Shown here piece by piece: positions 1-41,629 of a DNA stretch of 44,218 nt. The first letter of the stretch is position 1. Each line of letters begins with the position of its first letter. A program made the position numbers and the translations under genes. The notes beneath the pieces are model-generated. The model had not been told where the DNA came from. It saw only the letters and a program-made list of their open reading frames with translations, and ran no database searches. Source of the stretch: an uncultured beta proteobacterium (GTDB taxonomy: Bacteria > Pseudomonadota > Gammaproteobacteria > Burkholderiales > Burkholderiaceae_C); the NCBI GenBank assembly GCA_903822205.1, contig CAIJOK010000032.1:1-44218 (forward strand), written 5' to 3'.

Positions 1-288
1 CGTGAACAAATCCGCTACCTGCACTATAGCCTAAGAACCGAAGAGGCTTACGTCTATTGGGTCAAAAACTTCATCCGGTTTCACGGCCTTCAGCATCCTC
101 GCAACATGGGACAAGCCGAGATTGAAGCGTTTTTGTCTTATCTGACCACACAGCGCAAGGTGTCCGTTTTGACCCACCGGCATGCTTTGAGTGCCTTGAT
201 GCGTGATTGGCTGGACAGCCAAAACGCCTTCCCCATCGGTGCAGCGAGCTGTTGGGACAAAACAAGTTGCGTTACCATGCGGGCCTAA
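1..288 (+). pseudogene. Integron-type tyrosine recombinase, N-terminal remnant
   Basis: Frame 1 is open from the window edge to a TAA at 286-288. Up to about position 200 it reads like the N-terminal SAM-like core-binding domain of integron integrases: a segment with [20 protein letters not shown], then FIRFHG, then EAFLSYL, then RKVS and THRHALSAL. After about position 200 the similarity stops, the frame ends, and I see no catalytic-domain motif (R...HxxR...Y) in any frame before hda. The 5' end lies outside the window, so whether the start is intact is unknown. The assignment to the IntI/XerC-like family comes from remembered sequence pattern. The gene is inactive as seen, because the catalytic half is absent. 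Confidence 0.75.
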
Positions 289-564
289 GATGGTGCTTGG
301 TCATTGGATGATCCATGCGCTACGCTGGGCTGATGTCGGTCTTGGCCTGTGCCTTATTGCCCACTTGGCCAAACAGTACGTTTGACTGGCAAAGTACATC
401 GGACACCGGGCGCAGCCCCCTGACTCTTCGACATTGCATTTTTGCCCTGGCCTTATTTTTCGCCATTTGATGTCCTTGACCTTTTCTCAAAAAAGAGCTT
501 TTGTTGGGCTGCTGCTTGTGGGCACGGCTGACGTTGGGTGGCTATTGGCCCATAGGGACGCATC
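289..564. other. Non-coding or decayed stretch before hda
   Basis: No convincing gene is seen here. A short open frame runs from about 203 to 385 on the plus strand, but I do not recognise it and its start lies inside the integrase remnant. The stretch probably holds eroded sequence plus the hda promoter. A weak Shine-Dalgarno-like AGGGA at 554-558 precedes the GTG at 565. Confidence 0.4.
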
Positions 565-9476: not shown

Positions 9477-10379
9477 CTATTTGTGCGACAAACCCCAAAC
9501 GTAGGCTGTCAGAACGTGAATCTGGGCCGGTAACAGTTTGCCGCCCTGGGCGGGCATAACGTTGACCCTGCCGTTGCTCACCATATCGACAATGGTTCTT
9601 TCAACCCCCGGGCCATGCAACCATATTTTGTCGGTCAAGTTGGCTGAGCCAATCGCCTGCATGCCCTTGCCGTCCGGGCCATGACAGGCCGCGCACACCA
9701 CAAACTTGTCGCGCCCTAGCGCCGCCCGCACCGAATCATGGGCCAGACCCGACAGGCTTAACACATACTGCGCCAAGTTTTTGACATCGTCACCACTGCC
9801 CACAGCCGCAGCCATGGGCGGCATGTTGCCAACACGACCTTGTGTGATCGTCTCCTTGATCTTGTCCGGTGTACCCCCGTGCAGCCAGTCGTCGTCGGTC
9901 AGGTTTGGAAAGCCTTTGTTGCCCCTGGCATCTGAGCCGTGGCACTGGGCGCAATGGTTGCTAAACAGACGCTCGCCTACCACCATGGCGGGGGCATCTT
10001 TGGCCAGGTCCTCAGGAAGCATAGACACAAACCTGGCGTAGAGGGGGTCGGTCTGAGCGCGGGCACGTTCAAGCTCGGTCTGAAGCTGCGCAGTGGCCGA
10101 CCAGTTCAAGCTGCCCAGACGGCTGCCCAGCCCGGGGTAAAGCCATAAATAGGCAAAAGCAAACAGCACGGTCAGCACAAACATATACGTCCACCAGCGC
10201 GGCAAGGGATTGTTCATCTCACGCAGGTTATCGTCCCATACGTGGCCCGTTGTGTCGTCTGCGGCAGTTTTAATCTTGAGCCGGCCAACAGCGATCAGCA
10301 AGACCAAACAAAAAATAATACTGACCACGGTGATCGCAGTTACATAAAAAGCCCAAAAGTCACTGGTAAAGTCGCTCAT
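9477..10379 (-). CDS. ccoP: cbb3 oxidase diheme subunit CcoP
   Basis: The diheme cytochrome c subunit that passes electrons to CcoN in the high-affinity cbb3 oxygen reductase. It has 300 residues, an N-terminal membrane segment at about 11-31, a second hydrophobic segment at about 64-81 (the two-helix form of CcoP), and two class I cytochrome c domains with CAQCH (143-147) and CAACH (229-233). Methionines in PPMAAA and NVMPAQGG are the likely axial ligands. It is the last cco gene of the operon. Normally ccoG and ccoH would follow; here rfbB does. Confidence 0.95.
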   Translation of the reverse strand: MSDFTSDFWAFYVTAITVVSIIFCLVLLIAVGRLKIKTAADDTTGHVWDDNLREMNNPLPRWWTYMFVLTVLFAFAYLWLYPGLGSRLGSLNWSATAQLQTELERARAQTDPLYARFVSMLPEDLAKDAPAMVVGERLFSNHCAQCHGSDARGNKGFPNLTDDDWLHGGTPDKIKETITQGRVGNMPPMAAAVGSGDDVKNLAQYVLSLSGLAHDSVRAALGRDKFVVCAACHGPDGKGMQAIGSANLTDKIWLHGPGVERTIVDMVSNGRVNVMPAQGGKLLPAQIHVLTAYVWGLSHK

Positions 10380-10448
10380 AATGTATTGGAGAGGAAGTAT
10401 GATGTTTAATGTTTGATGTTATGAAGAAAGACTGACAAACAATGGATG

Positions 10449-10592
10449 TCAATCCTGCTCAAATGGCAATTGGGAAGCCTGCTCAAAATCATCCGATTGT
10501 TTTTGAGAAAAAGCCCACACCACAATACAAACAAAAATCAGCAGGGAGATGACCGTCACAATGGATCGCAGAGAATTAAGGTCAAAATTCAT
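10449..10592 (-). CDS. ccoQ: cbb3 oxidase small subunit CcoQ
   Basis: A 47-residue protein read directly in the gap between ccoO and ccoP. It starts MNFDLNSLRS, has a single hydrophobic segment (IVTVISLLIFVCIVVWAF, about residues 11-28), and ends in a short polar tail rich in Q, D and E. Size, position and topology fit CcoQ, which stabilises the cbb3 complex. The spacing is 31 bp from ccoO and 69 bp to ccoP. Sequence conservation in the family is low, so the call rests mainly on context. Confidence 0.85.
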   Translation of the reverse strand: MNFDLNSLRSIVTVISLLIFVCIVVWAFSQKQSDDFEQASQLPFEQD

Positions 10593-10623
10593 GGTGTGAC
10601 TTGCCAATGTTGACGAAATAATA

Positions 10624-11316
10624 TTATTTAACCCAAGTTCCCAATATCTGCAAATAGGCGATAACGGCCTCTATCTCGGTCTTGCCCTTCAAGGCAGCCG
10701 ATGATGCCGCAATCTGGGCATCGGTGTAGGGCACACCCACGCGGCGCAGCGCAGTCATGTGGGCGGGCATGGACGCAGCATCCACCAGATTGGCCAGCAG
10801 CCAAGGATAGGCGGGCATATTGGACTCAGGCACCACATCACGCGGATTGTTCAGGTGCGTGGTATGCCACTGGTCGGTGTATTTGCCGCCCACGCGGTGC
10901 AAATCTGGCCCTGTGCGCTTGCTGCCCCACTGAAAAGGATGGTCATAAACAAACTCTCCGGCCATTGAATAATGACCGTAGCGCAGTATCTCGGCGTGCA
11001 GCGGGCGAATCATCTGGGAGTGGCAGTTGTAACAACCTTCGCGTTGGTAAATGTCGCGCCCGGCCAATTGCAGTGCCGTGTAGGGCAGCAAGCCAGGAAC
11101 CGGCGTAGTGGTCGATCTTTGAAAAAACAACGGGATAATTTCAACCAGGCCGCCAAATAACAGGACGACCAATATCAGCACAATCATCCAAAAATTATGG
11201 GTTTCTACCTTTTGCGACAAACCGCCGTTCGTTGGGTGATGATGATCCAAAGAGGCCAAAGGAGCAGAAGGGACGGGGGGTATCTCAGAAGGGTGACCTG
11301 AATCAAGGGTGGACAT
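10624..11316 (-). CDS. ccoO: cbb3 oxidase monoheme subunit CcoO
   Basis: The membrane-anchored monoheme cytochrome c subunit of cbb3 oxidase. It has 230 residues, a hydrophobic anchor at about 43-63, and heme motif CYNCH at 95-99 followed by SQMIRP, the family signature. The N-terminus carries about 30 extra, proline- and histidine-rich residues before the conserved start of the family. It lies 9 bp downstream of ccoN and 31 bp upstream of ccoQ, so it is tightly operonic. Confidence 0.95.
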   Translation of the reverse strand: MSTLDSGHPSEIPPVPSAPLASLDHHHPTNGGLSQKVETHNFWMIVLILVVLLFGGLVEIIPLFFQRSTTTPVPGLLPYTALQLAGRDIYQREGCYNCHSQMIRPLHAEILRYGHYSMAGEFVYDHPFQWGSKRTGPDLHRVGGKYTDQWHTTHLNNPRDVVPESNMPAYPWLLANLVDAASMPAHMTALRRVGVPYTDAQIAASSAALKGKTEIEAVIAYLQILGTWVK

Positions 11317-11325
11317 AAGGTTTCC

Positions 11326-12807
11326 TCAAGCGTGTGCAGCAGAAGTGGAAATATTAGAAATATTGGATGTGTTTGAGATATTGGAGATATTGGGAATATG
11401 TACCACCACCGATCGCCCTCGTGCCGCCGTCTGGAGGGTATTCCACAACATGATCACCATGCCGGTCAAATACAACAAACCGCCCAACAATCGAATCACA
11501 TAAAACGGATAACTGGCCTTGACAGATTCAACAAAAGTGTAGGTCAGAGTTCCGTCGCTTTGTACCGAGCGCCACATCAGCCCCTGCATCACACCGGCTA
11601 TCCACAGCGCTGCAATGTAGAGCACGATGCCCGTGGTGGCCACCCAAAAGTGGATCTCGATGGCCTTGACGCTGAACATTTGTTTTTGACCAAACAAACG
11701 CGGTATCAGGTAGTACATCGACCCCATCGTGACCATCCCAACCCAGCCCAGCGCGCCTGAATGCACATGCCCGATCGTCCAATCGGTGTAGTGCGACAGC
11801 GCATTCACGGTCTTGATAGACATCATGGGGCCTTCAAAGGTGGACATGCCATAAAACGACAGCGACACGATCAAAAACCGCAAAATGGGGTCATCGCGCA
11901 ACTTGTACCAGGCCCCGGAAAGGGTCATGATGCCGTTGATCATCCCGCCCCAACTGGGGGCCAACAAGATCAGCGAAAACACCATGCCCACCGACTGCGT
12001 CCAGTCCGGCAAAGCGGTGTAGTGCAGGTGGTGCGGCCCCGCCCACATGTAGGTAAATATCAAAGCCCAAAAGTGAATGACAGACAGCCGGTACGAATAG
12101 ACCGGACGCTCAGCCTGCTTGGGGACAAAGTAATACACCATGCCCAAAAAACCCGCCGTCAAAAAGAACCCCACGGCATTGTGGCCATACCACCACTGCA
12201 CCATGGCATCTTGTACACCGGCATAAGCCGAATAGGACTTCATCCATCCTGCCGGAACCTCGGCGCTATTGACAATGTGCAGCAGCGCCACGGCGATGAT
12301 CATCGCCCCAAAAAACCAGTTGGCCACATAGATGTGGCGCACCCGCCGGATGCCGATGGTGCCAAAAAACACAACAGCGTAAGCCACCCACACCAGCGCG
12401 ATCAAAATGTCGATGGGCCATTCAAGCTCGGCGTATTCCTTGGACGTGGTGTAGCCCATGGGCAGCGTGATCGCTGCAGACAGGATGACCAACTGCCAGC
12501 CCCAGAACGTGAAGGCCGCCAAGGTGTCGTTAAAGATGCGCACCTGACAGGTGCGCTGCACCACGTGGTACGAGGTGGCAAACAGCGCACAGCCGCCAAA
12601 CGCAAAAATAACAGCGTTGGTGTGCAAGGGGCGCAGGCGGCCATAGCTGAACCACGGGATGCCAAAGTTAAGCTCTGGCCAGGCCAACTGGGCGGCAATG
12701 ACCACGCCCACCAACATACCCACGACACCCCAAACCACCGTCATCAGGGCAAACTGTCTGACAACCTTGTCGTTGTAGGTCGTTGCCTGCGAATTTATCC
12801 ATGCCAT
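11326..12807 (-). CDS. ccoN: cbb3 oxidase catalytic subunit CcoN
   Basis: The heme-copper catalytic subunit that reduces oxygen to water at high affinity, with multiple membrane helices. It has 493 residues. Family segments include TSYHVVQRT (heme ligand region), [19 protein letters not shown] (metal-site helix), [14 protein letters not shown] (copper histidines) and [17 protein letters not shown] (heme ligands). The ATG at 12807 has GAGGA at a good distance. The last residues after [11 protein letters not shown] are odd: a run of NIS/NTS tripeptides followed by TSAAHA, encoded by a low-complexity repeat at about 11345-11400. That tail is not part of the conserved fold. Confidence 0.95.
11345..11400. 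repeat. Low-complexity AATATT/GATATTGGA-type repeat in the ccoN tail
   Basis: Units resembling (G)ATATTGGA and GAAATATTA recur in tandem with small changes, and code for Asn-Ile-Ser repeats at the CcoN C-terminus. The AT-rich run contrasts with the GC-rich body of the gene, which suggests slippage expansion. Confidence 0.6.
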
Positions 12808-12875
12808 CTGTCAGTCCTCAATCTGGTTGCTGTGTATGAAATTTTATTCAAAATCAATGTGTTATCACGTGTTTT

Positions 12876-18882: not shown

Positions 18883-21744
18883 CTAATCAAAATGGGCTGG
18901 CGCACCAGACAGGCCGGTGTGAAAGAACGCGATGCTTTGCTGCAACTGGCAGGCCTGTGTGGAGAGTTCCTCGCTGGTGGATGCCAGCTCTTCGGATGCT
19001 GAAGCATTGTGCTGAGTGATCTGGCTAAGCTGCCCCATGGCGCTACCGATCTGCATGACTGATTCGCTTTGTTCAGCACTGGCTGTCGCGATCTCTTGAA
19101 CGAGTTCGCTGGTCTTTTTAACGCTGGGCACGATGGCCAAAAGCAGCTTGCCAGCCAAGTCGGCAGTGGTCACACTGGACGCTGCCAGTTCGCCGATCTC
19201 CTTGGCGGCCTGCTGACTGCGTTCGGCCAGTTTGCGAACCTCGGCGGCCACGACGGCAAAACCTTTGCCGTGTTCACCGGCGCGGGCGGCCTCGATCGCG
19301 GCGTTAAGCGCCAGCAGATTGGTCTGGTACGCGATGTCATCGACGATGCCAATTTTGTCGGCAATTTGCTTCATGGCGGCCACTGTTTGGCTGACGGCGT
19401 GTCCGCCCTGAACGGCCTCTTGCGTGGTTTTGGCGGCCATGCCGTCGGTCACTCGGGCGTTGTCACTGTTGTGGCTGATGGACGCTGACATGATATCGAT
19501 CGATGCACTGGTTTGCTCAACGCCGGCAGCTTGTTCACTGGTAGCCTGCGACAGTCCCTGAGCGGTGGCATTGACCTGATTGGCAACGGTGATCAGCGAC
19601 TCTGCGGCGGACCTGACATCGTCCATGACTTGCTTCAATTTGTCGCTGGATGTGTTCACACTGTCCTTGACGGCAGCAAACAGTCCGCCATAGTCACGGT
19701 CGATGCGTGCAGTTAAATCGCCTTCAGCCACGGCGGCCAACACACGTGCCACATCGCTCAGACTGTGTTCGCTGGTGTCCATGAGGTGGTTCATGCTGGT
19801 ATAAATTTTGCCAAAAAAGCCTGTCTTGCCGGCCAGGGTCAGACGGTGGCTAAAGTCCCCACGAGTGGCTGAACCAACCATGTCGTCCAGTTCTTGCTCG
19901 GATGCAATCTCATCGCTGCGGTCGATCCATTGTGTGATGCGCCCAATCGGCATACCTTTGCTGTCATGCACCGGACGCGCCAGCAACTGCAGGCTGTGAC
20001 CCGCCACCACCATATCGACAGTGGCACCGGTACGCACGGCCTGGTCAAAGCGCGCCGCGTGGTCGGGGTCTTTGAACAGGCTTGAGAGTTTGTTGCCATA
20101 AAACCGGTCGGTGTCAAAGCCGGGGCCACCAAACAGCTTGAGCAGTTCTTTGGCGCAGGGCGTGGCGTGAACCAATAAGGCCTGCGTGTCCGAGACGGTG
20201 ACACATACCGGCAGACTGTCCAGGGACAGCCGAACGCGTTGGTTAAAGGCTGCGGCCTCTGCGGCATCTTGCAAAGATTGCCGCACCCTGTCCACGGCAT
20301 CGCTGATGCGAGCTTTTTGGCCAGGCAGGCGTTCCATCACCACGTCAAAGCGACCCTGGGTGTAGGCGGCGGCAACTTCGATCACCCGCAGTTGAAGGGT
20401 AATGTGCGATTGCACCAGTTGATTGACGGAGCAAGCCATGCTGCCATAGACCCCTGGCAGGCCTTGGGTGTTCATGCGAAAGTCAATCTGGCCTTGGTCA
20501 TGTTGTGCTGCCAGCTCTTGCTGGGCTGTCTGAAACTGTTCAAGTACGCTCTGCATGGTGATCAGAGATGCAAGCACTTGGGCTGCCTCGTCACACCCCG
20601 TGGGCTGGGCCGGGGTGTGGCGTAAATCGCCCTCGGCAACGTCACGCAAATGGCGGTTAATCTGCCCCAGACCGTCGTTGGTCACCCGATAAAAGCTGTA
20701 AAACAAATAAGCCACCAGCAACAGGGCCAACAGGCCACCGCCGGTTGAATAGGCTAGCCGCTGCTGCATGGCATCCAGGCGCGTCACCAACAAATGATCC
20801 AGGACGGGCAGGCCTTTATCATAAAAAGATTGCAGCCGCAGCACGGCGGCCTCACCGCTGTCGTAGTACTTGCCGGGGGTCAGATTGACCTGCCCCATCA
20901 GTGCCAAGGGGTCTTTGGCCAATTGGTGAAACGTGGCAACGTCATCCAGCACCGCCATGTCCAATTGGGATGACAGTGCAGGATTAGCGTGAAATGCGCG
21001 CTGCAAATAGGCTCGGGCTTGCTTCAGGCCGGTCTCCACCCCCACGGCCCACACCAGATAGCGCTTGTCCTCAGCGCTTGTCAGGCCGGAATGCACCAGC
21101 GCATAAGTGCCCCAGCCCCATAACTGGCCCAAGTCCTCGGTCAGGTTGGGCAGGGCCAAAACCATCGCATCGACCAGATAAAAACTGTCGATGTTGGGGT
21201 CAAGCACCAGATTGGCGTTATCTCCGATCTGCACCAGCAAGGACGTGACCGAGGTGGATACCGGCCCAAACACGGTGTGACCGTCTTTGTCAGCCCCATT
21301 GACAGCGCCTGCGGTATCTGCCCAGGCAGCCGTTAGCTTGTCAAACTCAGGTTTCAGTTGGAGCATGTCGTTGGACTCTGCGATAAAGGCAGCAAAGTCT
21401 TTGAGTGCCAGATCGGTCTGAACACGTGCCGCCTGGTACTTGTTCTTGCCATCAAACCCGCCCAAAGTGGCACGGGTGGCGTTGCGGGCCGCCAGAACGC
21501 CGGTGTAGATCGGCACAAAGTGGCGCAGGGCCACCACGCCGGTGCGTTCTCGCTGGGCAAAGTTGATTTGCTCCAGTTGGGTCGTTGCAAACAAATAGCC
21601 AAACAACGCGACAGGCAGGGCAAACAAACAGGAGATCAGCAGGGCCTTGCCCGTAAATTGCAGATTGCCCATCAGGCGCATCCCGGGCATCCACAGAATG
21701 GCTGGTTGCGACCGCAAAGATGATGAATGTAAAGGGCTCGCCAT
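18883..21744 (-). CDS. Methyl-accepting chemotaxis protein 1 (large helical sensor, HAMP and PAS)
   Basis: A 953-residue chemoreceptor. The second of two adjacent ATGs (21744) is chosen because GGAG sits six bases upstream; 21747 is also possible. TM1 lies at about residues 32-52, a large helical periplasmic domain at about 55-332, TM2 at about 334-351. A HAMP domain (about 355-405) is followed by two HAMP-like segments, a PAS-like domain (about 505-610, [20 protein letters not shown]), two more HAMP-like segments (about 620-710), and a signalling domain whose tip is [20 protein letters not shown] (801-820). The sensor domain is shared with the hybrid kinase at 5800-8139. The C-terminus ends in HFD with no tether motif. 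It lies downstream of cheV after a 235-bp gap, so it may have its own promoter. Confidence 0.92.
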
Positions 21745-21795
21745 CATGAACTCCGATCTTAAAAAAATGTAGAACGAAAAAAAGTTTTCTACGTC

Positions 21796-21979: not shown

Positions 21980-22936
21980 CTATTGCGTCAACACTTTGCG
22001 CAGGGTGATGGCCAGCTCTCGTGGAGAAAACTTGGCCACATAACCATCCGCGCCCACACTTTTGATATGGTTTTCGTTGGTATTGCCCGTCAGCGAAGAG
22101 TGAATCACGACCGGGATGCCTTTGAAGCGTTTGTCTTCCTTGATCAAACGGGTCAAGGTAAAACCGTCCATCTCGGGCATTTCCAGATCGGTCAGCACCA
22201 CGGCTATCTTGTCTTTGACGCGAACACCGTCGGCTGCGGCCTGATCGGCGGTTGCCTGCAAATGATCCCAGGCTTGTTTGCCTGTATGCGTCATCACGTA
22301 ATGCACATTCATGGCCTGCAAGCCCAGCTCAATAACCGCCCGGGCCACTTGCGAATCATCTGCTACCAAGATAGACGCACCTTTCGGCATGGGCAGATCA
22401 GGGCCAACCACTTCACGCGACAACTCTTCTTTACTCACGGGCATGACTTCACGCAACACCTGCTCTACGTCCAGCACCTGGGCCAGACGGGTGTCTTGCC
22501 GGCTGCCGTCCAGCCGAGCGATGCCGGTGACCATGGCACCGGCGTGGCTGCTTTCGGCGGGCAGCACCTGGTTCCATTCGAGGCGAACGATCTCGCGCAC
22601 GTCCTCAACGGCAAAAGCCTGCACGGTTCGGCCAAATTCAGTCACCATCAAAATAGTGAGACCCAGCTTGGGGGTGCAACCCACCACAGCAGGCAGGTTG
22701 ATGACAGGGATGATCTGGCCGCGAATGTTGGCCACCCCCATCAGGTGCTGGTGAGAATTAGCGAGGGCCGTGATTTTGGGCATGACCAGAACCTCGCGAA
22801 CCTTGAACACGTTGATGCCGTAAAGCTCTCGCTCACCCGTGCCAGGAGATTCGCCCAGCCTAAACAACAGCAATTCAAACATGTTGTTACCCGCCAGGCG
22901 AGTGCGTTCTTCCAGTTCTTCTTGGGCTGATTTCAT
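21980..22936 (-). CDS. cheV: Chemotaxis coupling protein CheV
   Basis: A 318-residue CheW-receiver fusion. The N-terminal CheW-like domain (about 20-170: FELLLFRLGE, GINVFKVREVL, GVANIRGQIIPVINLP) couples receptors to CheA. The C-terminal receiver (about 185-315: SILVADDSQVAR, phosphoacceptor Asp in VVLTDLEMPEMDGF, Lys in YVAKFSP) is phosphorylated by CheA and is thought to tune adaptation. It lies 65 bp after the receptor at 23002-25029, and a triple 10-bp repeat fills that gap. No cheA or cheY lies nearby. Confidence 0.93.
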   Translation of the reverse strand: MKSAQEELEERTRLAGNNMFELLLFRLGESPGTGERELYGINVFKVREVLVMPKITALANSHQHLMGVANIRGQIIPVINLPAVVGCTPKLGLTILMVTEFGRTVQAFAVEDVREIVRLEWNQVLPAESSHAGAMVTGIARLDGSRQDTRLAQVLDVEQVLREVMPVSKEELSREVVGPDLPMPKGASILVADDSQVARAVIELGLQAMNVHYVMTHTGKQAWDHLQATADQAAADGVRVKDKIAVVLTDLEMPEMDGFTLTRLIKEDKRFKGIPVVIHSSLTGNTNENHIKSVGADGYVAKFSPRELAITLRKVLTQ

Positions 22937-23001: not shown

Positions 23002-25029
23002 CTAATAAGGCGTGAAGTTGGACAGCCCTGACGGCAATGCCCGCACGGGCCTGGGCTGGTCAATCGCCTGAAATACAGCCGGACGGCTGCGCGATGTCTT
23101 GCTGGCCATGTGGCGATCTCTGTGGCGATCCGTAGGGGGGAGTGCTTCGTCGCCGATGTTGAAGAATGCTATGCCTTGCTGAAGCTGCTCGGCCTGTCCT
23201 GACAGCTCTTCGCTGGTGGCGGCCAGCTCTTCGCTGGCCGATGCGTTTTGCTGGGTGGCGATGCTTAACTGGCCCATCGCTCCGCCAATTTGCGTGACAG
23301 ATTCGCTCTGTTCGGCGCTTGAGGATGCGATCTCTTGCACCAGATCGCTGGTTTTTTGGATGCTGGGGACGATTTCGTCCAACAGCTTGCCGGCACGCTC
23401 AGCGGTTGAAACGCTGTGTCTGGCCAGGTCGCTGATTTCACGGGCGGCCTCTTGGCTGCGCTCGGCCAGTTTGCGAACCTCTGCGGCCACAACCGCAAAA
23501 CCCTTGCCGTGGTCTCCGGCACGGGCGGCTTCAATGGCGGCGTTGAGCGCCAACAAATTGGTCTGGTACGCAATGTCATCGACGATGCTGATCTTAGCGG
23601 CAATCTGCTTCATGGCCGATACGGTTTGTCCAACGGCGCTGCCACCCTCAACGGCTTCTTTGCTGGTCTTTGTGGCCATGCCGTCGGTTAAACGGGCGTT
23701 GTCACTGTTTTGATTGATGGTGGCTGACATGGCCTCAATAGACGCGGTGGTCTGCTCCACGCCAGCAGCTTGTTCGCTGGCGGCTTGCGACAAACTTTGG
23801 GCGGTGGCAGACACCTGATTGGCAGCATTGGTCAAGGCATTGGAGGCTGCACGCACGTCGAAAAGGACACGGGTTAGATTGGTAGCGGTGGCATTGACGC
23901 TGTCTTTGACTTTGCCAAACAGTCCCTGGTAGTCATGTGTGATGCGCTGCGTCAAATCGCCCTCGGCAAAAGCACCCAGCACTCCTGCCACGTCGGTCAT
24001 GGCGGCCTGGCTGATGTCCAGCCATTGGTTCATGCCCGTAGATAAATTGGCAAAAAAACCAGTCTTGCCGGCCAACGCCAAACGCAGACTAAAGTCGCCT
24101 GCCACTGCGGCCAGCACCAATTGGGCCACTTCTTTTTCGGTTGCAACCTCATGGGTGCGATCGGCCCACTCAACCACTGTGCCACTGCGGCTGCCGTCCT
24201 CATCAAAGACGGGGCTGGCGCTCAAGTTAAAAGCCAAACTGCCAACATTGATTTGCGTCTTGTAGGTGGAACGCAGCCCCGCCAGCAGGTTTTGCTGGTG
24301 GGCGGGATTTGTGTGAAAGATGTCGATGTTTTGGCCCACCAGTTTTTGACTATCAAACTGCGGCAAGACCTTTTGCAGCTCAGACTGATTGCGCTGCATC
24401 ATGCTGGTAACGGAGTCGTTCATGTAGATGATGGTGTTGCTGGCATCTGCGATCATGACGTTGGTGCTACACCGGTCCAAGGCATTTCGAATGCGCAGGT
24501 TTTCGGCATAGATGCGTTGTAGGTTGTCCTGGGCGATTTGCTTGTCGATCGCGGCTTGTGACTCTTGGCGGGCCTTGTCGGCCATGATTTGCAGCGAATG
24601 GTTGGTCTGGGCCAAGGCCATGGCAAAGCTGCCGCGCATACCCAGCGGCTGGGCACACCTGAAATACTGCCCACGGCTGGCGTATTGCAGCACGGTCGAT
24701 TGCTCTCTAAAGCAGGTTTCCAACTGATCGAGCATGTCATTGATGTCCCACAAGACTGAGTGAAATTGCCCACGAATTGGAATGTGCAGAATGCGCCTGT
24801 CAAACTGACCATGCGCGACATCCCTGGCAATCGCCTGCACCTGCAACAAATGGCGGTGATTGATAAGGTTAGCCCGGTGCCACCAAAGCAGCCAAAGCAG
24901 ACAGGGCAGCAGCCAGATCACGGCATTCCAGTCGGGGTAAGCGTTCTGCACGGATGCGCCGGCCACCAGCAACACAGCCATGACCAATGTATAGAGGGAA
25001 CTTTCAGAGTGAGAGGATAAGCTGCTCAT
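23002..25029 (-). CDS. Methyl-accepting protein 2, hairpin-anchored (CetA/Aer-like)
   Basis: A 675-residue receptor without a periplasmic sensor domain. The ATG at 25029 is chosen because AAGGAG lies six bases upstream; the longer frame to 25200 lacks support. Two hydrophobic segments (about 12-27 and 35-51) are joined by a very short loop (VQNAYPDW), giving an Aer-like membrane hairpin. A HAMP-like linker follows, then a cytoplasmic PAS domain ([18 protein letters not shown]), HAMP-like repeats and a signalling domain with tip [20 protein letters not shown]. The C-terminus ends in SNFTPY, which fits an aromatic CheR/CheB tether pentapeptide. The gene overlaps the upstream PAS gene by 26 bp. 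Topology and partner suggest energy or redox taxis (inference). Confidence 0.88.
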
Positions 25030-25522
25030 AGCTAACTCCTTTTTGGGTAAGGATATTGACAAGCAAAGCCAGCGAAGCATCACAGGCATCACGGGGACCG
25101 GCGCGGCGCTCTTCGTCCAGCATCCGTTGATAGACCTCTGACATCGTGGTGGTGGCCTGTGGCTTGGCCTTGCGGCGCACTGAAAAATAACCCGTGGCAT
25201 TGCCCTGCGGGTCCAGGTCAGGTGTCACGTTGGCAAACACCCAATAAAAACCACCGTCTTTGGACATGTTTTTAACGTACGCAAAGCACTCTTTTTTTTG
25301 CGCCAGGGTGTCCCATAAAAACTTAAAAACGCCGCGCGGCATGTCGGGGTGTCGGATGATGTTGTGCTGGGTACCCAACAGTTCAGCCTCTGAATAGCCT
25401 GAAAACTCGACAAAAATGCGGTTGCAGTAGGTGATGCAGCCTTTCAGGTCGGTCTTGGAGACGATGAAATCGTCCTCTCGCATGAGTCGCTCATGCCGTG
25501 TGGGTTGGATTTTGTGCTTCAT
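25004..25522 (-). CDS. Stand-alone Aer-type PAS protein (CetB-like)
   Basis: A 172-residue soluble protein made almost wholly of one PAS domain. It follows the Aer pattern closely: [64 protein letters not shown]. In Aer this type of PAS binds FAD and senses redox state. There is no transmembrane segment, HAMP or signalling domain. The C-terminal 40 residues are helical and could contact a partner. The stop overlaps the receptor gene at 25029 by 26 bp, so the two are translationally coupled. The pair resembles Campylobacter CetB (PAS) and CetA (receptor). The ATG at 25522 is preferred over a TTG at 25549; neither has a good ribosome-binding site. Confidence 0.85.
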
Positions 25523-25561: not shown

Positions 25562-28027
25562 TTAGACGAGATGGGGCAAGCTGCGGGGTTGGTCGCTGCC
25601 GGTGTCAAAAAACGCCATGCTTTGCCGCAATTGGTCGGCCTGAGCGGACAGTACTTCGCTGGTGGCGGCCAGTTGTTCGCTGGCCGATGCGTTTTGCTGG
25701 GTGGCGGCGCTTAACTGCCCCATCGCGCTGCCGATTTGCTTGACGGACTGTGATTGTTCGCCTGACGCTGCAGCGATTTCTTGCACCAGTTCGCTGGTTT
25801 TTTGGATGCCTGGAACGATTCCGTCCAGCAATTTGCCGGCATGTTCGGCAGTGGTCACGCTGTTGCCAGCCAGTGTGCCGATCTCTTTGGCGGCCTCCTG
25901 GCTGCGTTCTGCCAGTTTTCGAACCTCGGCGGCCACGACCGCAAAACCCTTGCCGTGCTCTCCGGCACGTGCGGCCTCAATGGCTGCGTTCAGGGCCAGC
26001 AGGTTGGTCTGGTACGCAATGTCGTCGACGATGCTGATCTTGGCGGCGATTTGCTTCATGGCTATGACGGTTTGACTGACGGCACGACCACCGTCGATGG
26101 CCTCTTGGGTGGTTTTAAGCGCCACGCCGTCGGTGGTGCGGGCGTTGTCACTGTTTTGGTTGATGGAGGCTGACATGAGGCCGATGCTGGCGGTGGTTTG
26201 CTCAACATTGGAGGCCTGCTGGCTGGCTGCCTGTGACAAATTTTGGGCGGTGGAACTGACCTGATCAGCGACATGGATCAGGGCATCAGCCGCTGCTCTG
26301 ACCTGTTCAATGACGCAAGTCAGGTTGTCGGCGGTCGTATTGACGCTGTCCTTGACCTGGCCAAACAGGCCGTCGTAGTCACGGCCGATGCGCTGTGTCA
26401 AACACCCTTGCGACAGAGCGGACAACACGTGTGCTGTGTCTGTCATCGCGCTCTGACTGGCCTCTAGCAACTGGTTCATGGCGGCCGCCAAAATACCTAA
26501 AAACCCAGACTTGCCGCTCAGACTGACACGCTGGGCCAAATCACCGCAAGCTGCCGCAGACACAACGCTGGCCACCTCTTTTTCTGCGGCGATCTCATCG
26601 GTGCGATCGAGCCACTGGGTGATGCTGCCTATCTGCAAGCCACTGGCATCGTGGACAGAGCGCACCACCAATTGCAGTTCGCGGGTGTTGACCACCATGT
26701 CGGTGGGCTGCCCTGTTTTGAGCGCCAGCGCTAACAAACCGGTGTGAGCAGGGTGAGTGAACAGACTGGCGAGGGGCCGGCCATAGAACTGGTGGATATC
26801 CAATCGGTCTGTGGCGATGAGCTGCAAGAGCTGGATGGCCGCAGGTGTCGCGTGGACAAGCTGCCCCTGGGGGTCACAGACGGTCACACAGGCTGGCAAA
26901 CTGTCCAACGACTGCCGAATGCGCTGGTTGAAGACAGCATCGGCGGCAGCCGTTTGCATGGTGGCCCTGACCTGATCAACCGCCGCACTGACGCGGGCTT
27001 TTTGGCCTGGCAGGCGGTCCATCATCACGTCAAAGCGGCCCTCGGTATAGGCCACCACCACGTCGATCACGCGCATTTTGGCGGCGATATGCGACTGCAC
27101 CAGAAGGTTCATGGACTCTGCCATGCTGCGGTAAGCCCCCTCAAACTGGTCTGCGGGCAACTGGTAGTCCAGCATTCCAGCATCGTGCTGGCGCGCCATT
27201 TCGGTCTGTGCCGTCTGAAACAGGGTCAGCACAGACTGCATGTGGGCCATGGCCCCCAGCAATTGACCGATCTCGTCGTTGCCCGTGACCGTGATGGGGA
27301 CCGAAAGGTCGCCCATGGCCACAGCCGATGCAACTGCCTCGGTAGCTTTGAAACCCGCCGATATTCTGCGCAAAGAGGCATACGCCAGCCATGAGGCCGG
27401 AATGACCACCAGCACCATCAGCCCGCCCATCACCCTCATCAAGGTGTCAAACCGACGCTGCGCTGCCTGCACTTCTTCGTTGGCTTTTTGAATATGAAAC
27501 TCGCGCACGGCATCAAGGGCTTTGACAGCGGCGGCCCCTTCAATGCGGCCTGCCCGCAAAAAAAACGCCATGGTGGCAGTGCTGAAGTCTCCCGACACGA
27601 TCGCGCTGAGTGCCTGATCGGCCAATACCAGCCACGCGGTCAGTTTGGTGTTGGCCTCTTGGACACGGGCCATTTCATCAGACGACTGGGGTGCATTCAG
27701 GTAAGTCTGCCAAAATTTTTGGTTTTCAAGCGCCCTCAATTGAATGGCGTTGATGTGGCGGGACAGGGGGTGGTCGTGAATTTTGGACTGCGAGCCGGTG
27801 GGGTCATGCTGAAAGGCTTGAAACATTTCCATTCGGTTGGTCAGCACCCGTTGCGACATTTGGGCCAAAAGCTCGGCGGTTTGCATCCGCTTGTCGTGAA
27901 CTTCCCTGATGCTATTGCGCGATGAGAACATGCCCCAGTAACTGACGGTTGATACAGACAGCAGGGCCAGCCAAAAGGCGACGACCACAAGTCCCATGCG
28001 CTGGGTAATGCGGATATTCTGAAACAT
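25562..28027 (-). CDS. Methyl-accepting chemotaxis protein 3
   Basis: An 821-residue receptor. The ATG at 28027 has AAGGA at good spacing, while the open frame further upstream covers a repeat array and is unlikely to be coding. TM1 lies at about residues 14-34, a four-helix-bundle-type periplasmic domain of about 160 residues follows, then TM2 at about 195-217, HAMP (about 220-270), HAMP-like segments (ending [16 protein letters not shown]), a PAS-like domain ([20 protein letters not shown]), further HAMP-like segments and the signalling domain. The C-terminus ends PRSLPHLV with no tether motif. From about residue 255 on it aligns with receptors 1 and 4. It lies between cheW and the PAS gene. 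Confidence 0.92.
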
Positions 28028-28147: not shown

Positions 28148-28723
28148 CTAATGACCATGCTGCCGCGCAGCAATGGCGGCCATGTCGTCAATGTTGAGCG
28201 CACGCTCTGGCTCAAGGATGACGATAAACCTTTTGTCAACCTTGCCCAATCCATGAATAAATTCGCGCTGAATGGTGGTTCCAAACTGGGGGGGTGGTTC
28301 GATCTGTGCGGTGGCAATGTCAATCACCTCGCTCACCGCATCCACCCACAGGCCCAGTTCGATCTTTTCAGTGCTGCTGCTGGCATCAAAGATGACGATG
28401 CAGGTTTTTTTACCCACATGCGCATTGGGCCGCCCAAAGCGTGATTGCAAGTCGATCACCGGAACCACAGCCCCCCGCAAATTGATCACGCCCCGCACAA
28501 AATTAGGCATCAGGGGCACAACTGTCATGGCGCAATGCTGGATGATCTCGCGCACCGTGCGAATGTCCATGGCAAAGACCTCGTCGCCCAGGCTAAAGGT
28601 CAGGTATTGCAAGGTCTCTTGGGGGTTGCCGCCCAAAGCAGGCGAAGCGGGCTTGTTGTCAGCGGTACGTACCGGCGGCCTGGCCAATGTGGCAGATGCC
28701 TGGATCGCAGATGGATGGGTCAT
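28148..28723 (-). CDS. cheW: Chemotaxis coupling protein CheW
   Basis: A 191-residue scaffold that links receptors to the CheA kinase. The CheW fold is clear: QYLTFSLGDEVFAMDIRTVREII, PNFVRGVINLRGAVVPVIDLQSRFG, CIVIFD, GLWVDAVSEVIDI. An N-terminal tail of about 35 polar residues precedes the domain. GAGGT lies seven bases upstream of the ATG. It is placed between receptors 4 and 3, with 9 bp to receptor 4, so it is transcribed with them and may serve them specifically. Confidence 0.93.
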   Translation of the reverse strand: MTHPSAIQASATLARPPVRTADNKPASPALGGNPQETLQYLTFSLGDEVFAMDIRTVREIIQHCAMTVVPLMPNFVRGVINLRGAVVPVIDLQSRFGRPNAHVGKKTCIVIFDASSSTEKIELGLWVDAVSEVIDIATAQIEPPPQFGTTIQREFIHGLGKVDKRFIVILEPERALNIDDMAAIAARQHGH

Positions 28724-28732
28724 GGGAATACC

Positions 28733-31309
28733 TCATTGGTAGGGTCTAAAGTTGGCAGAGGCGGTGCTGCGTGGAGATCGGGTGACTCTGCTGCTGGGCA
28801 GCAAGGCCGCCACTGCTGCGCGGCGCTCTGGTGCAGGCCGTGCGCTAGTTGGCGGTGTCAGCCGACGTGTCGCACCCGTACCCGCACCCGTACCCGTGCT
28901 TGCGCCGGTATTAAAAAACGCAATGCTTTGTTGCAATGCATGGGCTTGGTCTGACAGTTCTTCACTGGTGGCGGCAAGCTCTTCACTGGCACTGGCGTTT
29001 TGCTGTGTGGCCTCGCTCAATTGGCCCATCGCATGGCCGATCTGGGTGACAGAATCGCTCTGTTCGCCCGACACAGCGGATATTTCTTGCACCAGCTCGC
29101 TGGTTTTTTGAATGCTGGGGACGATCTGGCCCAAGAGTTTGCCAGCACGCTCGGCAGTGGTCACACTGCTGCCGGCCAAGGTTCCAATCTCTTTGGCGGC
29201 CTCTTGGCTGCGTTCGGCCAATTTGCGAACCTCTGCGGCCACGACGGCAAAACCCTTGCCGTGCTCACCTGCTCGGGCGGCCTCAATGGCGGCATTGAGT
29301 GCCAACAGGTTGGTTTGGTACGCAATGTCATCGACGATGCTGATTTTTGCGGCGATCTGCTTCATAGCAGTCACCGTTTCGCCCACAGCGTCGCCGCCAT
29401 CGACAGCCTCTCTTGAAGTTTTGGTGGCCATACCATCGGTCAGTTTGGCGTTGTCGCTGTTTTGATTGATCGAACGCGACACGGTGACGATGCGCGAAGA
29501 AGCCTCATCGACGTGCGCAGCTTGCAAGCTGGCGGCCTGAGACAGGTTTTGGGCGGTTGCGCTGACCTGACTGGCGGCCACAGTCAAAGCCTCTGCGGCG
29601 GCGCGAACTTCACCGATGACGCGGGTGAGGTTGTCAGACGTGGCGTTCACGCTGTCCTTGACCTGGCCAAACAGACCGCAGTAGTCGCGGGTGATGCGCG
29701 ATGTCAGATCACCCTGGGCCACGGCACCCAATACCCGGGCCACATCGCTCAGGCCTTGTTCGCTGGTCTGAAGCAGATCGTTCATACCGATACTCAAATT
29801 TGCAAAAAAACCGCTTTTGCCCGCAGTGTTTAAGCGCTGGCTAAAGTCGCCGTTTCCGGCGGCGGCTACAAGACTGGCGACTTCCGTCTCGGAGGTGATC
29901 TCATCCGTGCGATCTGTCCAGTGTGTCACACGCCCCAGCTCTGCGCCCGTGGCATCCATGATGGGCTGAGCCAACAACCGGATGTAGCGGCCTTCCATTT
30001 CCAGATCAACACTGTCACCGGACTGAACTGCGCGCTCAAACCGCGCGGCGGTGTCAGCGTTTTGAAACAAACTGCTGAGCTTGTTGCCATAGAACCGCTC
30101 AGCATCAAACCCCTGACCGCCAAACAGTGTGAGCAACTGCTTGGCCGCCGGGGTGGCGTGGACGAAAACGGCATTGGCATCAGACACCGTCACGCATTCG
30201 GGCAGACTGTCCAAAGACGAACGAATGCGCAGGTTAAAGCCCGCAGCATGGGCGGCATCGCGCAGTGACTGCTGCACCCTGTCGATGGCATCTGTGATGC
30301 GGGACTTTTGGCCGGGCAGGCGATCCATGGCGACATCCAGGCGGCCCTCGGTATAGCCGGCCACCACATCGACGATCTTCAGGGTCATGGCCAAGTGCGA
30401 CTGCACCATGGCGTTGGTTGACAAAGCCATGTCGCCATAGGCCCCGGGCAGGTGGTCGGTGGGCATGCGGTGGTCGATCTGACCTTTGTCGTGCAGAGCC
30501 GCCATATCGTTCTGAGCCGACTGAAACTGCCCCAGCACGGCCTGCATTTTGGCCAGCGCAATCATCAGGTGGCCGGTCTCGTCATGGCGGTCAGTGGCGA
30601 TGTGACCGTCAAGCCGGCCTGCTGCAACGTCGTCAGCCACGCGCACGGCTTGGGCGATGGGTATGGTGATGGATCGGGTGATCAGCCATCCAAACAAAAT
30701 GGCCATGAAGACGCTCAGCCCCGAGCATCCGATCAGGACGTTGCGCGCCGTTTGGTATTGCCACTTGGATTGTTCAAAATCTTGGGTGTTCAGCTCTTCT
30801 TGGTACGCAATGTTTTGCTCAATGCACTCAAGCCACTTGTCCGTCGCTGGGCCAGCTTGTTGCTGAAGCAGGTGTGTGGCCTCTGCTGGCAGGTCGGCCA
30901 GGCCGAATGTCAAAATTTGTTCATTGACCGCCAAAGCATTCGCCCTGGCCCCGACAATTTTGTTGCGAATAGCCAAACCGGTCTCGCTGGTGGGGTACTT
31001 TTGCAGCAAATCCCATTGCCGCTGGTAGGCCGCACGTGCTGCAACCATTTTGGCCATCTCAAGGTCTTTGCCCGCCTGATCGGGTATCAAGATGATCGAC
31101 CGCAAAACACGCGAAAACACGTGCACGGAGTCAGCCAGCTTGGTGTTGATGCGAATTTTGACGAGGTTGTCTGTGACAACATCCTCAAGGTTGGCCTGAA
31201 TCCGGGCCATGTTGAACACGGCAATCACGGTCGTGGTGATCGACAAACAAACGATCAGGCCAAAAGTGACAAACAGGCGGGAGCCGATGGAGAGATGACG
31301 GAAATTCAT
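28733..31309 (-). CDS. Methyl-accepting chemotaxis protein 4
   Basis: An 858-residue receptor, first gene of the cluster. TM1 lies at about residues 12-32, a four-helix-bundle periplasmic domain of about 155 residues follows ([20 protein letters not shown] early on), TM2 at about 190-212, then HAMP, HAMP-like segments, a PAS-like domain ([20 protein letters not shown]), HAMP-like segments and a signalling domain with tip [20 protein letters not shown]. The C-terminal tail after AFFNTGA is a flexible linker rich in Thr, Gly, Pro and Arg. It ends in NFRPYQ, a likely CheR/CheB tether motif plus one residue. The Gly-Thr part is encoded by a degenerate CACCCGTACCCG repeat. The ATG is preceded by AGGG. 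Confidence 0.92.
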
Positions 31310-36545: not shown

Positions 36546-37604
36546 TCAGGCCAATGTGACTGTCTCAAAGATGTCCTGAAAAGCCGCGTGGTTTTGTGCA
36601 AACGCCGCCAAAATGGCCGGATCAAAATGCCCTGGCTGGGTACGTCCGTCACCCTTGGTGATGATCTCGACCGCTTTGGTGTGGTCAAAGGCGGGTTTAT
36701 AGGGGCGCTTGCTTCGCAGTGCGTCATAGATGTCGCCAATATTGAGGATGCGTGCTGCCAGTGGAATTTGCTCGCCTTGCAGGCCATTGGGGTAGCCACC
36801 ACCGTCCCATCGCTCATGGTGGCAAAGTGCGATTTTGACCCCCATTTTGAGATAGGGCGACTTGCCGTTGCCCATGATTCTGGCCCCTATCTCTGAATGT
36901 GTTTTCATGACGGCCCACTCATCAGGCGTAAACCCCCCTGGTTTAAGCAAAATTTGGTCCGGGATGCCGATCTTGCCAATATCGTGCATCGGACTGGCAA
37001 AAAAGAGGATGTCAACAAACTCTTCATCCTGGCCCAAAGCCCGGGCCAAAGCGCGGCTGTAGAAACTGACGCGCTGGACATGCGATCCGGTGTCTTCGTC
37101 CTTGTGTTCCGCTGCACGCGTCATGGTGAACATGGTTTCAATATAACCTTCGCGCAATTCAGCGGTGCGTGCCTGCACACGTTGCTCCAACACGTCGTTT
37201 TGGGATAGCAACTCTTTTTGCAGTAGCCGAACCTCCAGCATATTGCGAACCCGCGCCAGCACCTCGACGATTTCAAACGGTTTGCTGATGAAGTCCCGGG
37301 CTCCAGCGTTCAGTGCACGCAGTTTGTGACCAGGGTGGGCCGTAATGACCAGTACGGGCAAATAGCTCACAGCCTCGATCTTTTGCAATTCGTCCATCAC
37401 CTGAAAACCATCCATGCCGGGCATCTGAATATCCAGCACGATCAAGTCATACTGGTTTTGTCGGTGCAAATCATGCACGGCTGCGGGGGTGGTTGTGCTG
37501 GTGACTGCGGTATAGCCCGCCACGTGCAGTATTTGCTCCAGCAATATCACATTGGCTTGCTCGTCATCGACGATCAGAATATTGGCGTTCAAAATGTTCA
37601 TCAT
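36546..37604 (-). CDS. Response regulator with HD-GYP phosphodiesterase domain
   Basis: A 352-residue receiver plus HD-GYP output. Receiver at about 7-122: IVDDEQAN, phosphoacceptor D58 in LIVLDIQMPGMDG, K108. A short coiled coil (about 125-150) leads to the HD-GYP domain: HDIGKIGIPD with H207 and D208, then HHERWDGGGYP at 262-272. The metal ligands and the GYP signature are present, so c-di-GMP hydrolysis is expected. The start overlaps the stop of the large hybrid kinase as ATGA, so kinase and regulator are coupled and probably cognate. Confidence 0.92.
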   Translation of the reverse strand: MMNILNANILIVDDEQANVILLEQILHVAGYTAVTSTTTPAAVHDLHRQNQYDLIVLDIQMPGMDGFQVMDELQKIEAVSYLPVLVITAHPGHKLRALNAGARDFISKPFEIVEVLARVRNMLEVRLLQKELLSQNDVLEQRVQARTAELREGYIETMFTMTRAAEHKDEDTGSHVQRVSFYSRALARALGQDEEFVDILFFASPMHDIGKIGIPDQILLKPGGFTPDEWAVMKTHSEIGARIMGNGKSPYLKMGVKIALCHHERWDGGGYPNGLQGEQIPLAARILNIGDIYDALRSKRPYKPAFDHTKAVEIITKGDGRTQPGHFDPAILAAFAQNHAAFQDIFETVTLA

Positions 37605-40600
37605 GGTTTGCCCCCATCTGTGAGTTCCAAAGCAGCGTACAGCGCATCCATGAACTCATCGACCTTGATGGGTTTGGTGAGGTAGCGCAAAAAGCCAGCC
37701 TCTTTGCCCTTCTTGATGTCGCTGGGCATGGCGTTGGCGCTGATGGCCAGTGCCGGAATGTGCGCTGTAGCAGGGTCTTCGCGCAATAGCCTCAAAATCT
37801 CAAAGCCATTGATGCCCGGCAAATTGATGTCAAGCAAGATCACATCCGGCAACACCTCATGGGCCAGTGCGATGCCGATTTTGCCGTTGATGGCCGTCAG
37901 CAGGCGAATGGAGGCATGGCGCTCGATGATTTTCTCAACCAGTGTCATGTTGGCGGGGTTGTCCTCCACATAAAGCAGGGTGCGCACCTGGCTAGGCACG
38001 TCGGGCATTGCGCTTAGTCCCAGGGCCTGGATGCGGCTCTCCAGACCCACCTCGGGTGCGGCCACAGATGGCAGCTCAAACCAGAACACACTGCCTGTAC
38101 CCACGCTGCTCTCTACACCGATGATGCCGCCCATCAGTTCAACGAGTTGCTTGGCCACCACCAGCCCGATACCGGTGCCCTCCACACTGCCGGCCTCTTG
38201 ACCCAAACGGTTGAATGCCTGAAACAACTGGGATTGCTGGGTCAGGTTCATGCCGATACCGGTATCACGGATGCTCACGCGGATGCGATCTTGGGCATTA
38301 GGTGTGCAGATCACCTCGACACTGCCGTGCTCAGTGTTGTATTTGATTGCGTTGGTCAGCAGGTTGATGAAAACTTGCTTCAGCCGTGTGCGATCGGCCA
38401 GGACAAACAGCCCCATGCCCACCGGCGGAAAGATCATCTGGATGCCCAGTTGTTGCACCTGAGGCTCAAACATGCCCTTGCACTCCTGCAAAATTTCATC
38501 CAGCAACACCGGCTCTTTGGACATGGGTATCAGCCGCGACTCGATTTTGGTCATGTCCAAAATCTCGTTGATCAGCTTGAGCAAATGCCAACCGGCCCGC
38601 AAAATCTGCGAAATGCTGGCCTGCTGGCCGTCGGTGGGCGCAGGCAGTTCAGACTCCATCAACTGGGCAAACCCCAAAATAGCATTGAGCGGGCTGCGCA
38701 GCTCGTGGCTCATGCTGGACAAAAAGTCGGATTTGGCCAAGTTGGCTTTTTCGGCCAGGGCGCGGGCAGATTCAAGCTCAATGCTTTTCTCTTCCAGCAC
38801 ACGGTCCAGGCGTTTGCGCTCGGTGATGTCACGCGCCGCAGCAAACACCCCTTGCAGTATGCGGTCACGGTCATAAAACGTGGTGGCGTTGTAGGACACC
38901 TCGGTCTCAAGCCCTTCGCGGGTGCGTGCCGTCAGTTCGTAATCGGTCACTTTCTTTTCAACCAGCGCCAGATTGATGGCGGCCTCGGCGCGATCCGGGT
39001 CTGTAAAGTATTTTTTGAAAGGTGCTCCGATCAGTTCGTCGCGGGTACATCCGGTCAGCGCCTCCATTTGCTTGTTGGAGTCGGTGATGATGCCCGCAGG
39101 GTCGGTGGTCATGATCGCGTCAATGTTGCATTCAAACAGCGATCGGGTATAGAACTGGTAGTCGCGCAGACGTTGGTCCAGTTTTTTGCGCTCTTCTTCG
39201 ATCTGCATCCGTGCGGTGTTGTCTGTACCGATCAGCAGATAGCCAATGATGGCATCTTGATCATCGCGCAGTGCCGTGACCGACACCACCGCCGGAAAGC
39301 GGCTGCCATCCTTGCGGATATAGGTCAATTCATAAATGTCTTCAATCCCGCGTGAGGCCTTGAACACCAGGGCCTCAAACCCGGGGGTGATCGGAGTATC
39401 CAGCTCGGTGCTTAGACTTTTGGCACGGGCGATCACCTCTTGGGGGTCAGAAATATCGGCGGGTGTGATCTTGTTCATCACCTCCAACGCGGTATAGCCC
39501 AACATGCGCTCGGCACCCACATTAAAAATCTGGATCACACCCTTGGCATCGGTGGCAATGCTCGAGAAATTGGCACTGTTAAAAATTGCATTTTGTAGTG
39601 CACCCGCTTTGAGCAAGGCCTCTTCGGCCTCTTTGCGCGCAGTGTTATCGGTGCCGATCAGCAGATAGCCAATGATGGCCTCTTGATCATCACGCAGTGC
39701 CGTGACCGACACCACAGCCGGAAATCGGCTGCCGTCCTTGCGGATGTAGGTCAGCTCGTAAATGTCTTCAATTCCGCGAGAGGCCTTGAACACCAGGGCC
39801 TCAAACCCGGGGGTGATCGGAGTATCCAGCTCGGTGCTTAAACTTTTGGCGCGGGCAACCACCTCTTGGGGGTCAGAAATATCGGCGGGTGTGATCTTGT
39901 TCATCACCTCCACGGCGGTATAGCCCAACATGCGCTCGGCACCCACATTAAAAATCTGGATCACACCCTTGGCATCGGTGGCAATGCTCGAGAAATTGGC
40001 ACTGTTAAAAATTGCATTTTGCAACGCACCTGCTTTGACCCCTGCCTCTTCGGCCTGTTTACGCATCGACACATCCCGCACAATACCGGTGAAATGACGC
40101 TCACCGCCCAGTTGCATTTCATTGAATGCGATCTCTAACTCAAACAGGCTGCCGTCTTTTTTGCGCCCTGTCACTTCACGTTCACAAGCAGCGGTTTGCC
40201 CCCCATTGAACTGAACCCACTCCGGGATCAGCAAATTGAGGGGTTGGCCGAGGATGTCTGCGCTGTGGTAACCAAACATGGTTTCAATGGCAGGATTGAC
40301 GGTCTCAATGATGCTGCCATTGGCGTGGAGGGTGATGATGCCGTCCATCACGGCATTCAGAATGGCTTGGATCAGGGCAGCACTGTCGCGTGCTGTTTGT
40401 TGCACGGCATATTCTGCGGTCACGTTGCGAAATACCAGCACAGCACCGATCACTTCACCATCATGGCACCTGATGGGGGCGCAACTGTCGGCAATGTCGT
40501 ATTCGTGGCCATCGCGGGCCAGCAATACGGTGTGATTGGCAAGGCCTTGCACCGTGCCATGCAGCAAAGCATCCATGACCGGAATGGCCACGGCCTGACG

Positions 40601-41500: not shown

Positions 41501-41629
41501 CCTTGAGTCCTCAGCGAAATGTGCGCACGTGGGCCACTGGCAATGCCGCAGCAGGATGGATAAGTCCATAAGTCACCCATGACCTTTGATGTTGCGCGAA
41601 GCGATCTCAGAACTTACCGCACGACCGAT

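Follow-up and report, generated by a model that had tools for sequence, protein, structure and literature searches.

The window, a stretch of 44,218 nucleotides, carries an overlapping gene pair that probably encodes a bipartite energy-taxis receptor of the CetB/CetA type with a second sensor, a heme-PAS, built into the receptor chain as an exchangeable cassette. A more specific version stands at about an even chance. Here one receptor would pair a redox-sensing flavin, carried by a detachable subunit, with a heme in the receptor chain itself that binds oxygen, and would compute one output, the plug-in second sensor having been exchanged repeatedly behind a constant CetB docking module. The sequence-only reading had suggested that two inputs may meet on one receptor, and this gains support from the flavin-PAS residues of the CetB-like protein and from an Aer2-type PAS with its ligand histidine in the receptor. 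The parts of the pair and of the surrounding array are as follows.

25004..25522, minus strand: CetB-like soluble PAS protein of 172 aa with an ATG start (phmmer, AlphaFold fold match, FAD residues)
CetB residues about 16-118: predicted FAD-binding PAS domain (sequence and fold match)
25004..25029, minus strand: 26-bp overlap between the 3′ end of the PAS gene and the 5′ end of the receptor gene (sequence reading)
25036..25043, minus strand: AAAAGGAG, lying in the PAS gene upstream of the receptor ATG and likely serving the receptor as ribosome-binding site (sequence reading)
23002..25029, minus strand: CetA-like receptor, 675 aa counted from the ATG (ORF and homology)
24865..25011, minus strand: membrane hairpin without periplasmic domain, receptor residues about 7-55 (Kyte-Doolittle for the first segment only, and AlphaFold)
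24550..24864, minus strand: CetA-type HAMP region (HAMP1), proposed CetB docking site, residues 56-160 (motif and homology)
24142..24492, minus strand: predicted Aer2-type heme-PAS, residues 180-296 (3VOL at E 6.9e-39, 4HI4, 6CEQ; top three fold matches)
24313..24315, minus strand: H239, equivalent of heme ligand H234 of P. aeruginosa Aer2 (gapless alignment and entry numbering)
24166..24168, minus strand: W288, equivalent of Aer2 W283 (alignment and entry numbering)
23824..24141, minus strand: Aer2-like HAMP region behind the PAS, residues about 297-402 (Pfam HAMP_2; 3VOL alignment through residue 389)
23110..23769, minus strand: signalling domain, residues about 421-640 (Pfam and identity to neighbours)
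25562..28027, minus strand: neighbouring receptor MCP3 (4HB, HAMPs, another PAS, HAMP, MCP), start codon assumed (Pfam)
28148..28723, minus strand: CheW (family search)
28733..31309, minus strand: neighbouring receptor MCP4 (Pfam)
21980..22936, minus strand: CheV-like protein, CheW plus receiver (Pfam)
18883..21750, minus strand: neighbouring receptor MCP5, start codon assumed (Pfam)
9480-12810: ccoNOP-type genes (cbb3), about 10 kb from the receptor end

Reading of the ORFs confirmed the sizes and coordinates first proposed for the PAS protein and the receptor, as well as their 26-bp overlap, in which the receptor ATG falls within the codons for SYEQ of CetB. FAD-PAS and receptor occupy two reading frames rather than the one chain of a single-chain Aer. 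A longer receptor frame of 732 residues exists and was rejected against the ATG, which lies at the exact 26-bp position in 57 of the best 80 of at least 561 relatives. The pair had also been placed next to an oxidase region. This does not stand, as about 10 kb with CheV, MCP5 and other frames separate the receptor from the ccoNOP genes, and an operon link between the receptor pair and the cbb3 oxidase was rejected. Elsewhere in the window, on the minus strand, a CHASE3 hybrid kinase with several PAS domains (37604-41572) lies beside a receiver-HD protein (36549-37655).

The relatives were found by scanning named genomes with four CetB rows, and the best 80 of at least 561 confirmed ones were taken. 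By record title the 80 belong to Burkholderiales, Rhodocyclaceae, Gallionellaceae, Hydrogenophilaceae, Gammaproteobacteria, Holophagaceae, relatives of Ignavibacteria, and Campylobacterales. A CetA-like receptor adjoins CetB in 79 of these 80 loci (74 downstream, 4 upstream, and L056). L080 is counted as downstream via a second CetB copy, its matching CetB having CetA upstream, and the locus without a seen partner (L058) stops 380 bp past cetB. At the overlap, the C-terminal end of CetB in the relatives is a SYE[EQ]-like motif. With 79 of 80 pairs, 57 of 80 overlaps and the reported overlap of cetB2 and cetA2 (Herz 2025, PMC12442639), the split pair and its overlap are a known and widespread arrangement. 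Sequence and predicted fold bear out the initial likening to CetA/CetB, as do the order and the overlap of the genes. A split system is not unusual in a betaproteobacterium, as many of the 80 listed pairs are betaproteobacterial by title.

Closer to the window, a 13-row model of the CetA front end at E 1e-8 matched 12 of 61 genomes in the window's genus (9 of 33 when limited to those of good quality) and, in a family sample, 9 of 399, the window's own genome included in both counts. Three of the nine family matches are frames of 501-507 aa, the size of a short CetA. This search superseded two looser ones, a family search matching 5 of 150 genomes at E 1e-3, among them the window's own and G145, which reads as a single-chain Aer, and a class search matching 115 of 369 genomes, many by weak matches to the HAMP part. 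Several variants of the pair were also seen among the listed relatives. The Campylobacterales partners L086, L088, L090, L092 and L093 start right before the HAMP without a membrane hairpin and could possibly be soluble; the CetA start of L042 (Rhodocyclaceae) has the same hairpin-less look. In L067, L071, L074, L077 and L080 (Thiodiazotropha and a related symbiont) a CetB copy with a different C-terminus (..YEEFIHTLG.) lies downstream of CetA, with L080 carrying CetB copies on both sides. The CetA frame of L082 (Methylococcaceae) is broken, its N-terminal part and the remainder forming two frames.

The domain set described for CetA comprises a hairpin, a HAMP and a signalling domain alone. 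The window receptor has an extra sensory PAS, which makes it a variant of CetA. Pfam recovers the signalling domain and HAMP_2 in the receptor, with the PAS under its cut-off, and also a PAS in the 172-aa protein. That the receptor has its own, different PAS was an initial claim that proved real, both by sequence match to the Aer2 structures 3VOL, 4HI4 and 6CEQ and by fold. The internal PAS is 48% identical to the PAS of P. aeruginosa Aer2 versus 23-26% to those of the three neighbouring receptors. With receptor model residues 174..311 set against 3VOL 169..306, H239 takes the place of the heme-ligating H234. W288 corresponds to W283, a residue with a role in Aer2; W288 was rejected as a heme marker because it occurs in all three cassette types described below, so that the assignment to heme depends on H239 together with the similarity as a whole. 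On this basis the domain is predicted to be an Aer2-type heme PAS and not a flavin PAS.

The internal PAS was compared across 24 long CetAs, namely the window receptor, 13 from the best-80 list and 10 from a search of the genus; L014 and L022 stop early at contig ends, and a few more long CetAs are cut by the fetched stretch. All 24 have cetB directly upstream, complete in L140 and as a 3′ part at a contig end in L143. Eight carry the heme cassette (the window, L016, L017, L019, L020, L021, L141 and L148), four have Tyr in place of His (L014, L015, L140 and L145), and twelve have the PAS type of the neighbours, which lacks the His. As 16 of the 24 lack the histidine, heme is dispensable for the architecture. 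The ligand histidine is absent from all three neighbours in the window's own array. Separately, receptors with two tandem Aer2-type PAS domains were seen in the same genus (L178, L180 and L173), with the ligand histidine in both PAS domains of L178 and L180 and Met in one of the two in L173.

The three types are scattered over the tree of CetB and the CetA N-terminus. This tree has 30 rows, 24 long and 6 short, with L140 and L143 lacking the CetB part; six of eight named short pairs entered as outgroup, L032 and L038 not being among the rows. Seven changes of cassette type are needed on it, a number only partly forced, as well supported branches require a minimum of four for heme, three for the neighbour type and two for Tyr. 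A topology that unites the heme rows in one clade is rejected (p-AU 0.00014), and with it a heme cassette that arose only once on the CetB/CetA tree. The window lies within a well supported set of 13 rows (99/95) that holds only one other heme row. On the PAS tree, by comparison, the window PAS sits in the Aer2-like half and groups with L016, L017, L020, L021 and L148 (89/80, not starred), and CetAs and other receptors are mixed in each of the three deep groups. Heme and Tyr cassettes also occur in non-CetA receptors of the genus, some of them close to a CetA within one contig (G806:C126, G766:C21). The best reading is that the PAS between front end and signalling part is an exchangeable cassette, and the direction of each exchange is something we infer.

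The same counts bear on a rival in which CetB is the sole sensor and the internal PAS is a cofactor-less structural spacer that passes the HAMP signal on. With 12 of 24 long CetAs lacking the ligand histidine and another 4 having Tyr there, the slot evidently works without heme. Against a spacer in the window receptor itself stand the 48% identity to Aer2 and the position in the Aer2-like half of the PAS tree, together with the residues retained by the window and its seven heme-cassette relatives (H239, H244, L269, W288 and the D-x-T end), whose PAS domains are invariant at 56 of 121 positions. This rival is unlikely, if the best placed of those considered, and a PAS that binds heme in the window receptor is preferred.

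The partner protein has the features of a flavin sensor. The best PDB sequence match of this small, separate PAS protein is the FAD-PAS of E. coli Aer (8DIK, phmmer E 2.7e-27), which also heads its fold matches, followed by NifL and MmoS. Its AlphaFold model has a mean pLDDT of 95.4 and places three C-terminal helices behind the PAS. FAD binding by CetB2 and its interaction with CetA2 have been demonstrated in M. gryphiswaldense, with FAD contacts at H54, N55, R58, F67, W71, N86, V100 and R117 (Herz 2025, PMC12442639). The window protein has the same eight residues when aligned to CetB2 (H53, N54, R57, F66, W70, N85, V99 and R116). Of 80 CetB rows (79 loci from the best 80 of at least 561 relatives, and the window), all have H53, W70, N85 and R116, while 79 have F66, 73 have N54 and 59 have V99. 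H53, W70, N85, R116 and F66 played no part in the choice of rows, whereas counts for R57, H58 and D60 are circular, the rows having been chosen by the RHPD motif. D60 is not invariant even so (RHPS in L056, RHPA in L140). The CetB alignment A4 took in 37 of the 80 loci. The FAD contacts, whose comparison with those of Aer was put forward at the outset as a check, are thus present in the window protein, and most occur in all or nearly all rows. The window protein is CetB-like and predicted to bind FAD.

This conservation weighs on a second rival, that of a membrane-tethered Aer2 in which the heme PAS is the sole sensor and CetB an assembly or stability factor. The curated NCBIfam model of Vibrio Aer2 is the best such model for receptor residues 178-632, at 374.6 bits under a cut-off of 1200 for the whole protein. 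A stability factor would sit poorly with FAD contacts most of which are shared by all or nearly all 80 rows, and when four changes to the CetB2 FAD pocket were tried in M. gryphiswaldense, three abolished CetB2 function (Herz 2025, PMC12442639). A sole heme sensor is consequently rated improbable, and CetB is better read as a sensor in its own right.

Behind the PAS the receptor resembles its neighbours. Compared with the three neighbours, its identity is low in the front half, at 13-25% for the hairpin, 17-20% for HAMP1 and 23-26% for the PAS, and rises to 56-69% for the later HAMP and 76-77% for the MCP part. In the MCP part the short CetA L023 is 34% identical over 154 positions versus 74-85% for the 11 long CetAs complete there. 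By these identities the receptor is a chimera of a CetA front end and a PAS-HAMP-signalling part like that of local array receptors, and it would have originated when a CetB/CetA front end was joined to such a part. A plain CetB/CetA receptor as already described, its extra PAS without consequence, would agree with CetB and with the receptor to about residue 160, both of which fit the known family. Residues 178-632, however, match Aer2 and array receptors and not short CetAs, of which one was compared (L023), and this rival is about as improbable as a sole heme sensor, or marginally more so.

The front end would carry the link to CetB. An Aer-like hairpin without a periplasmic domain, as originally described, is upheld in its first segment by Kyte-Doolittle and in its second by AlphaFold and reading of the sequence. 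Kyte-Doolittle exceeds its threshold at about residues 9-31 and at 304-320, the latter in the cytoplasmic part. The AlphaFold model of residues 1-403 is moderate (mean pLDDT 75.2, pTM 0.44) and has two N-terminal helices (7-30 and 37-72) separated by a six-residue turn, then HAMP-like helices, a PAS spanning about 187-290, and HAMP helices again. The gene adjacent to cetB thus encodes a hairpin, a HAMP and a signalling domain with no periplasmic domain, the second membrane segment resting on model and reading. Elliott 2009 reportedly named nine conserved HAMP residues for CetA-type receptors. A CetA motif derived in this analysis, N..LDQ.E..FRE with close variants allowed, is present in the window receptor and in 57 of 78 partners from the best 80 of at least 561 loci, with even the LDQ.E part missing in 17 of the 78; it is absent from MCP3, MCP4 and MCP5 (0 of 3).

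Evolutionary distances were compared over 20 of the 24 long pairs, L014 and L022 being incomplete and L140 and L143 lacking CetB there. Correlation with CetB is highest for HAMP1 (rho 0.78), then the hairpin (0.60), the later HAMP (0.45), the MCP part (0.44) and the PAS (0.24), a comparison that cannot separate contact from linkage. Hairpin distances track the MCP part (0.71) and HAMP1 (0.68) to much the same degree, and the internal PAS tracks no segment well (0.07-0.24). As CetB distances follow HAMP1 best and the PAS least, CetB, hairpin and HAMP1 tend to travel as a unit, and what is swapped is the PAS that lies between HAMP1 and the signalling part. That CetB serves a neighbouring receptor instead of the overlapping one is very improbable: pair and neighbours do share one array on one strand, but the CetA motif is found in the window receptor and in none of the three neighbours, and overlap and co-variation belong to the CetA kind of receptor.

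The analysis shows the gene arrangement, the homologies, the residues, the predicted folds and the mixing of cassette types; in the mechanism proposed for the pair, cofactors, docking, integration of both inputs and response direction are what we infer. CetB would bind FAD and track the redox state of respiration, docking on the HAMP region just under the membrane hairpin and so signalling to HAMP1. Further down the same chain, the Aer2-type heme PAS would bind oxygen and pass this signal in line to the later HAMPs, as proposed for Aer2. Both inputs would then run in line through the later HAMPs to the shared signalling domain, which could couple via CheW/CheV to a CheA. In the window's genome the signalling domain is matched 36 times, over 34 frames, and three of its Hpt proteins look CheA-like as judged by eye. 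The same genome holds two further receptors, L002 and L005 (G000:C44, G000:C122), which read as a single-chain Aer and a double-PAS AerC/CetZ-type receptor, the signalling part of the latter resembling that of the array receptors. CetBA2 mediates an oxygen-repellent response (Herz 2025, PMC12442639), and P. aeruginosa Aer2 expressed in E. coli gives a repellent response (PMC13401364). How the two inputs would combine is a matter of guesswork, an additive repellent effect being one guess and a threshold or gate another.

Oxygen itself and its effect on respiration are usually studied with separate receptors. If the proposed reading is true, a dual-sensor receptor allows one to ask how one molecule combines both signals. 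The cassette also comes in three natural types, all behind one CetB docking module, which gives a ready domain-swap series for following HAMP/PAS signal passage through a receptor.

Taken singly, the bipartite receptor with its overlap and FAD is known, and so is the heme PAS of Aer2. The literature searched showed neither the two combined in one receptor, with a second sensor exchanged behind a constant CetB module, nor a CetA with a heme PAS; Elliott 2009 could describe relatives. CetA/CetB of C. jejuni shares a separate PAS protein beside a hairpin and HAMP receptor, linked genes, and the Arg and His of the FAD site. Its genes are 17 bp apart whereas those of the window overlap, and its CetA is described with a transmembrane region, HAMP and signalling domain only, to which the window receptor adds the heme-type PAS and further HAMPs (Elliott & DiRita 2008, PMC2628428). 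CetB2/CetA2 of M. gryphiswaldense is closer in its overlapping genes and the same eight FAD contacts, with FAD shown for CetB2, but the accessible text describes no second PAS in CetA2, unlike in the window receptor (Herz 2025, PMC12442639). E. coli Aer (8DIK) resembles the pair in FAD-PAS fold and residues and in its membrane hairpin; it is one chain, however, and the window system is split (PMC9668731).

Aer2 of P. aeruginosa and V. cholerae (3VOL, 4HI4, 6CEQ) shares the heme-PAS, the equivalent position of its ligand histidine, and the HAMPs and signalling domain behind it (PMC13401364). In P. aeruginosa, Aer2 is described as a cytoplasmic protein whose PAS is preceded by three HAMPs (PMC13401364), while the window receptor has a CetA hairpin and HAMP ahead of its PAS and CetB encoded alongside. 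Signal transfer may therefore differ from Aer2, since its three pre-PAS HAMPs are replaced by that of CetA. The cytoplasmic AerC/CetZ type likewise brings two PAS inputs to each receptor, as in the window, but is described with both PAS domains in one soluble chain (PMC3558505).
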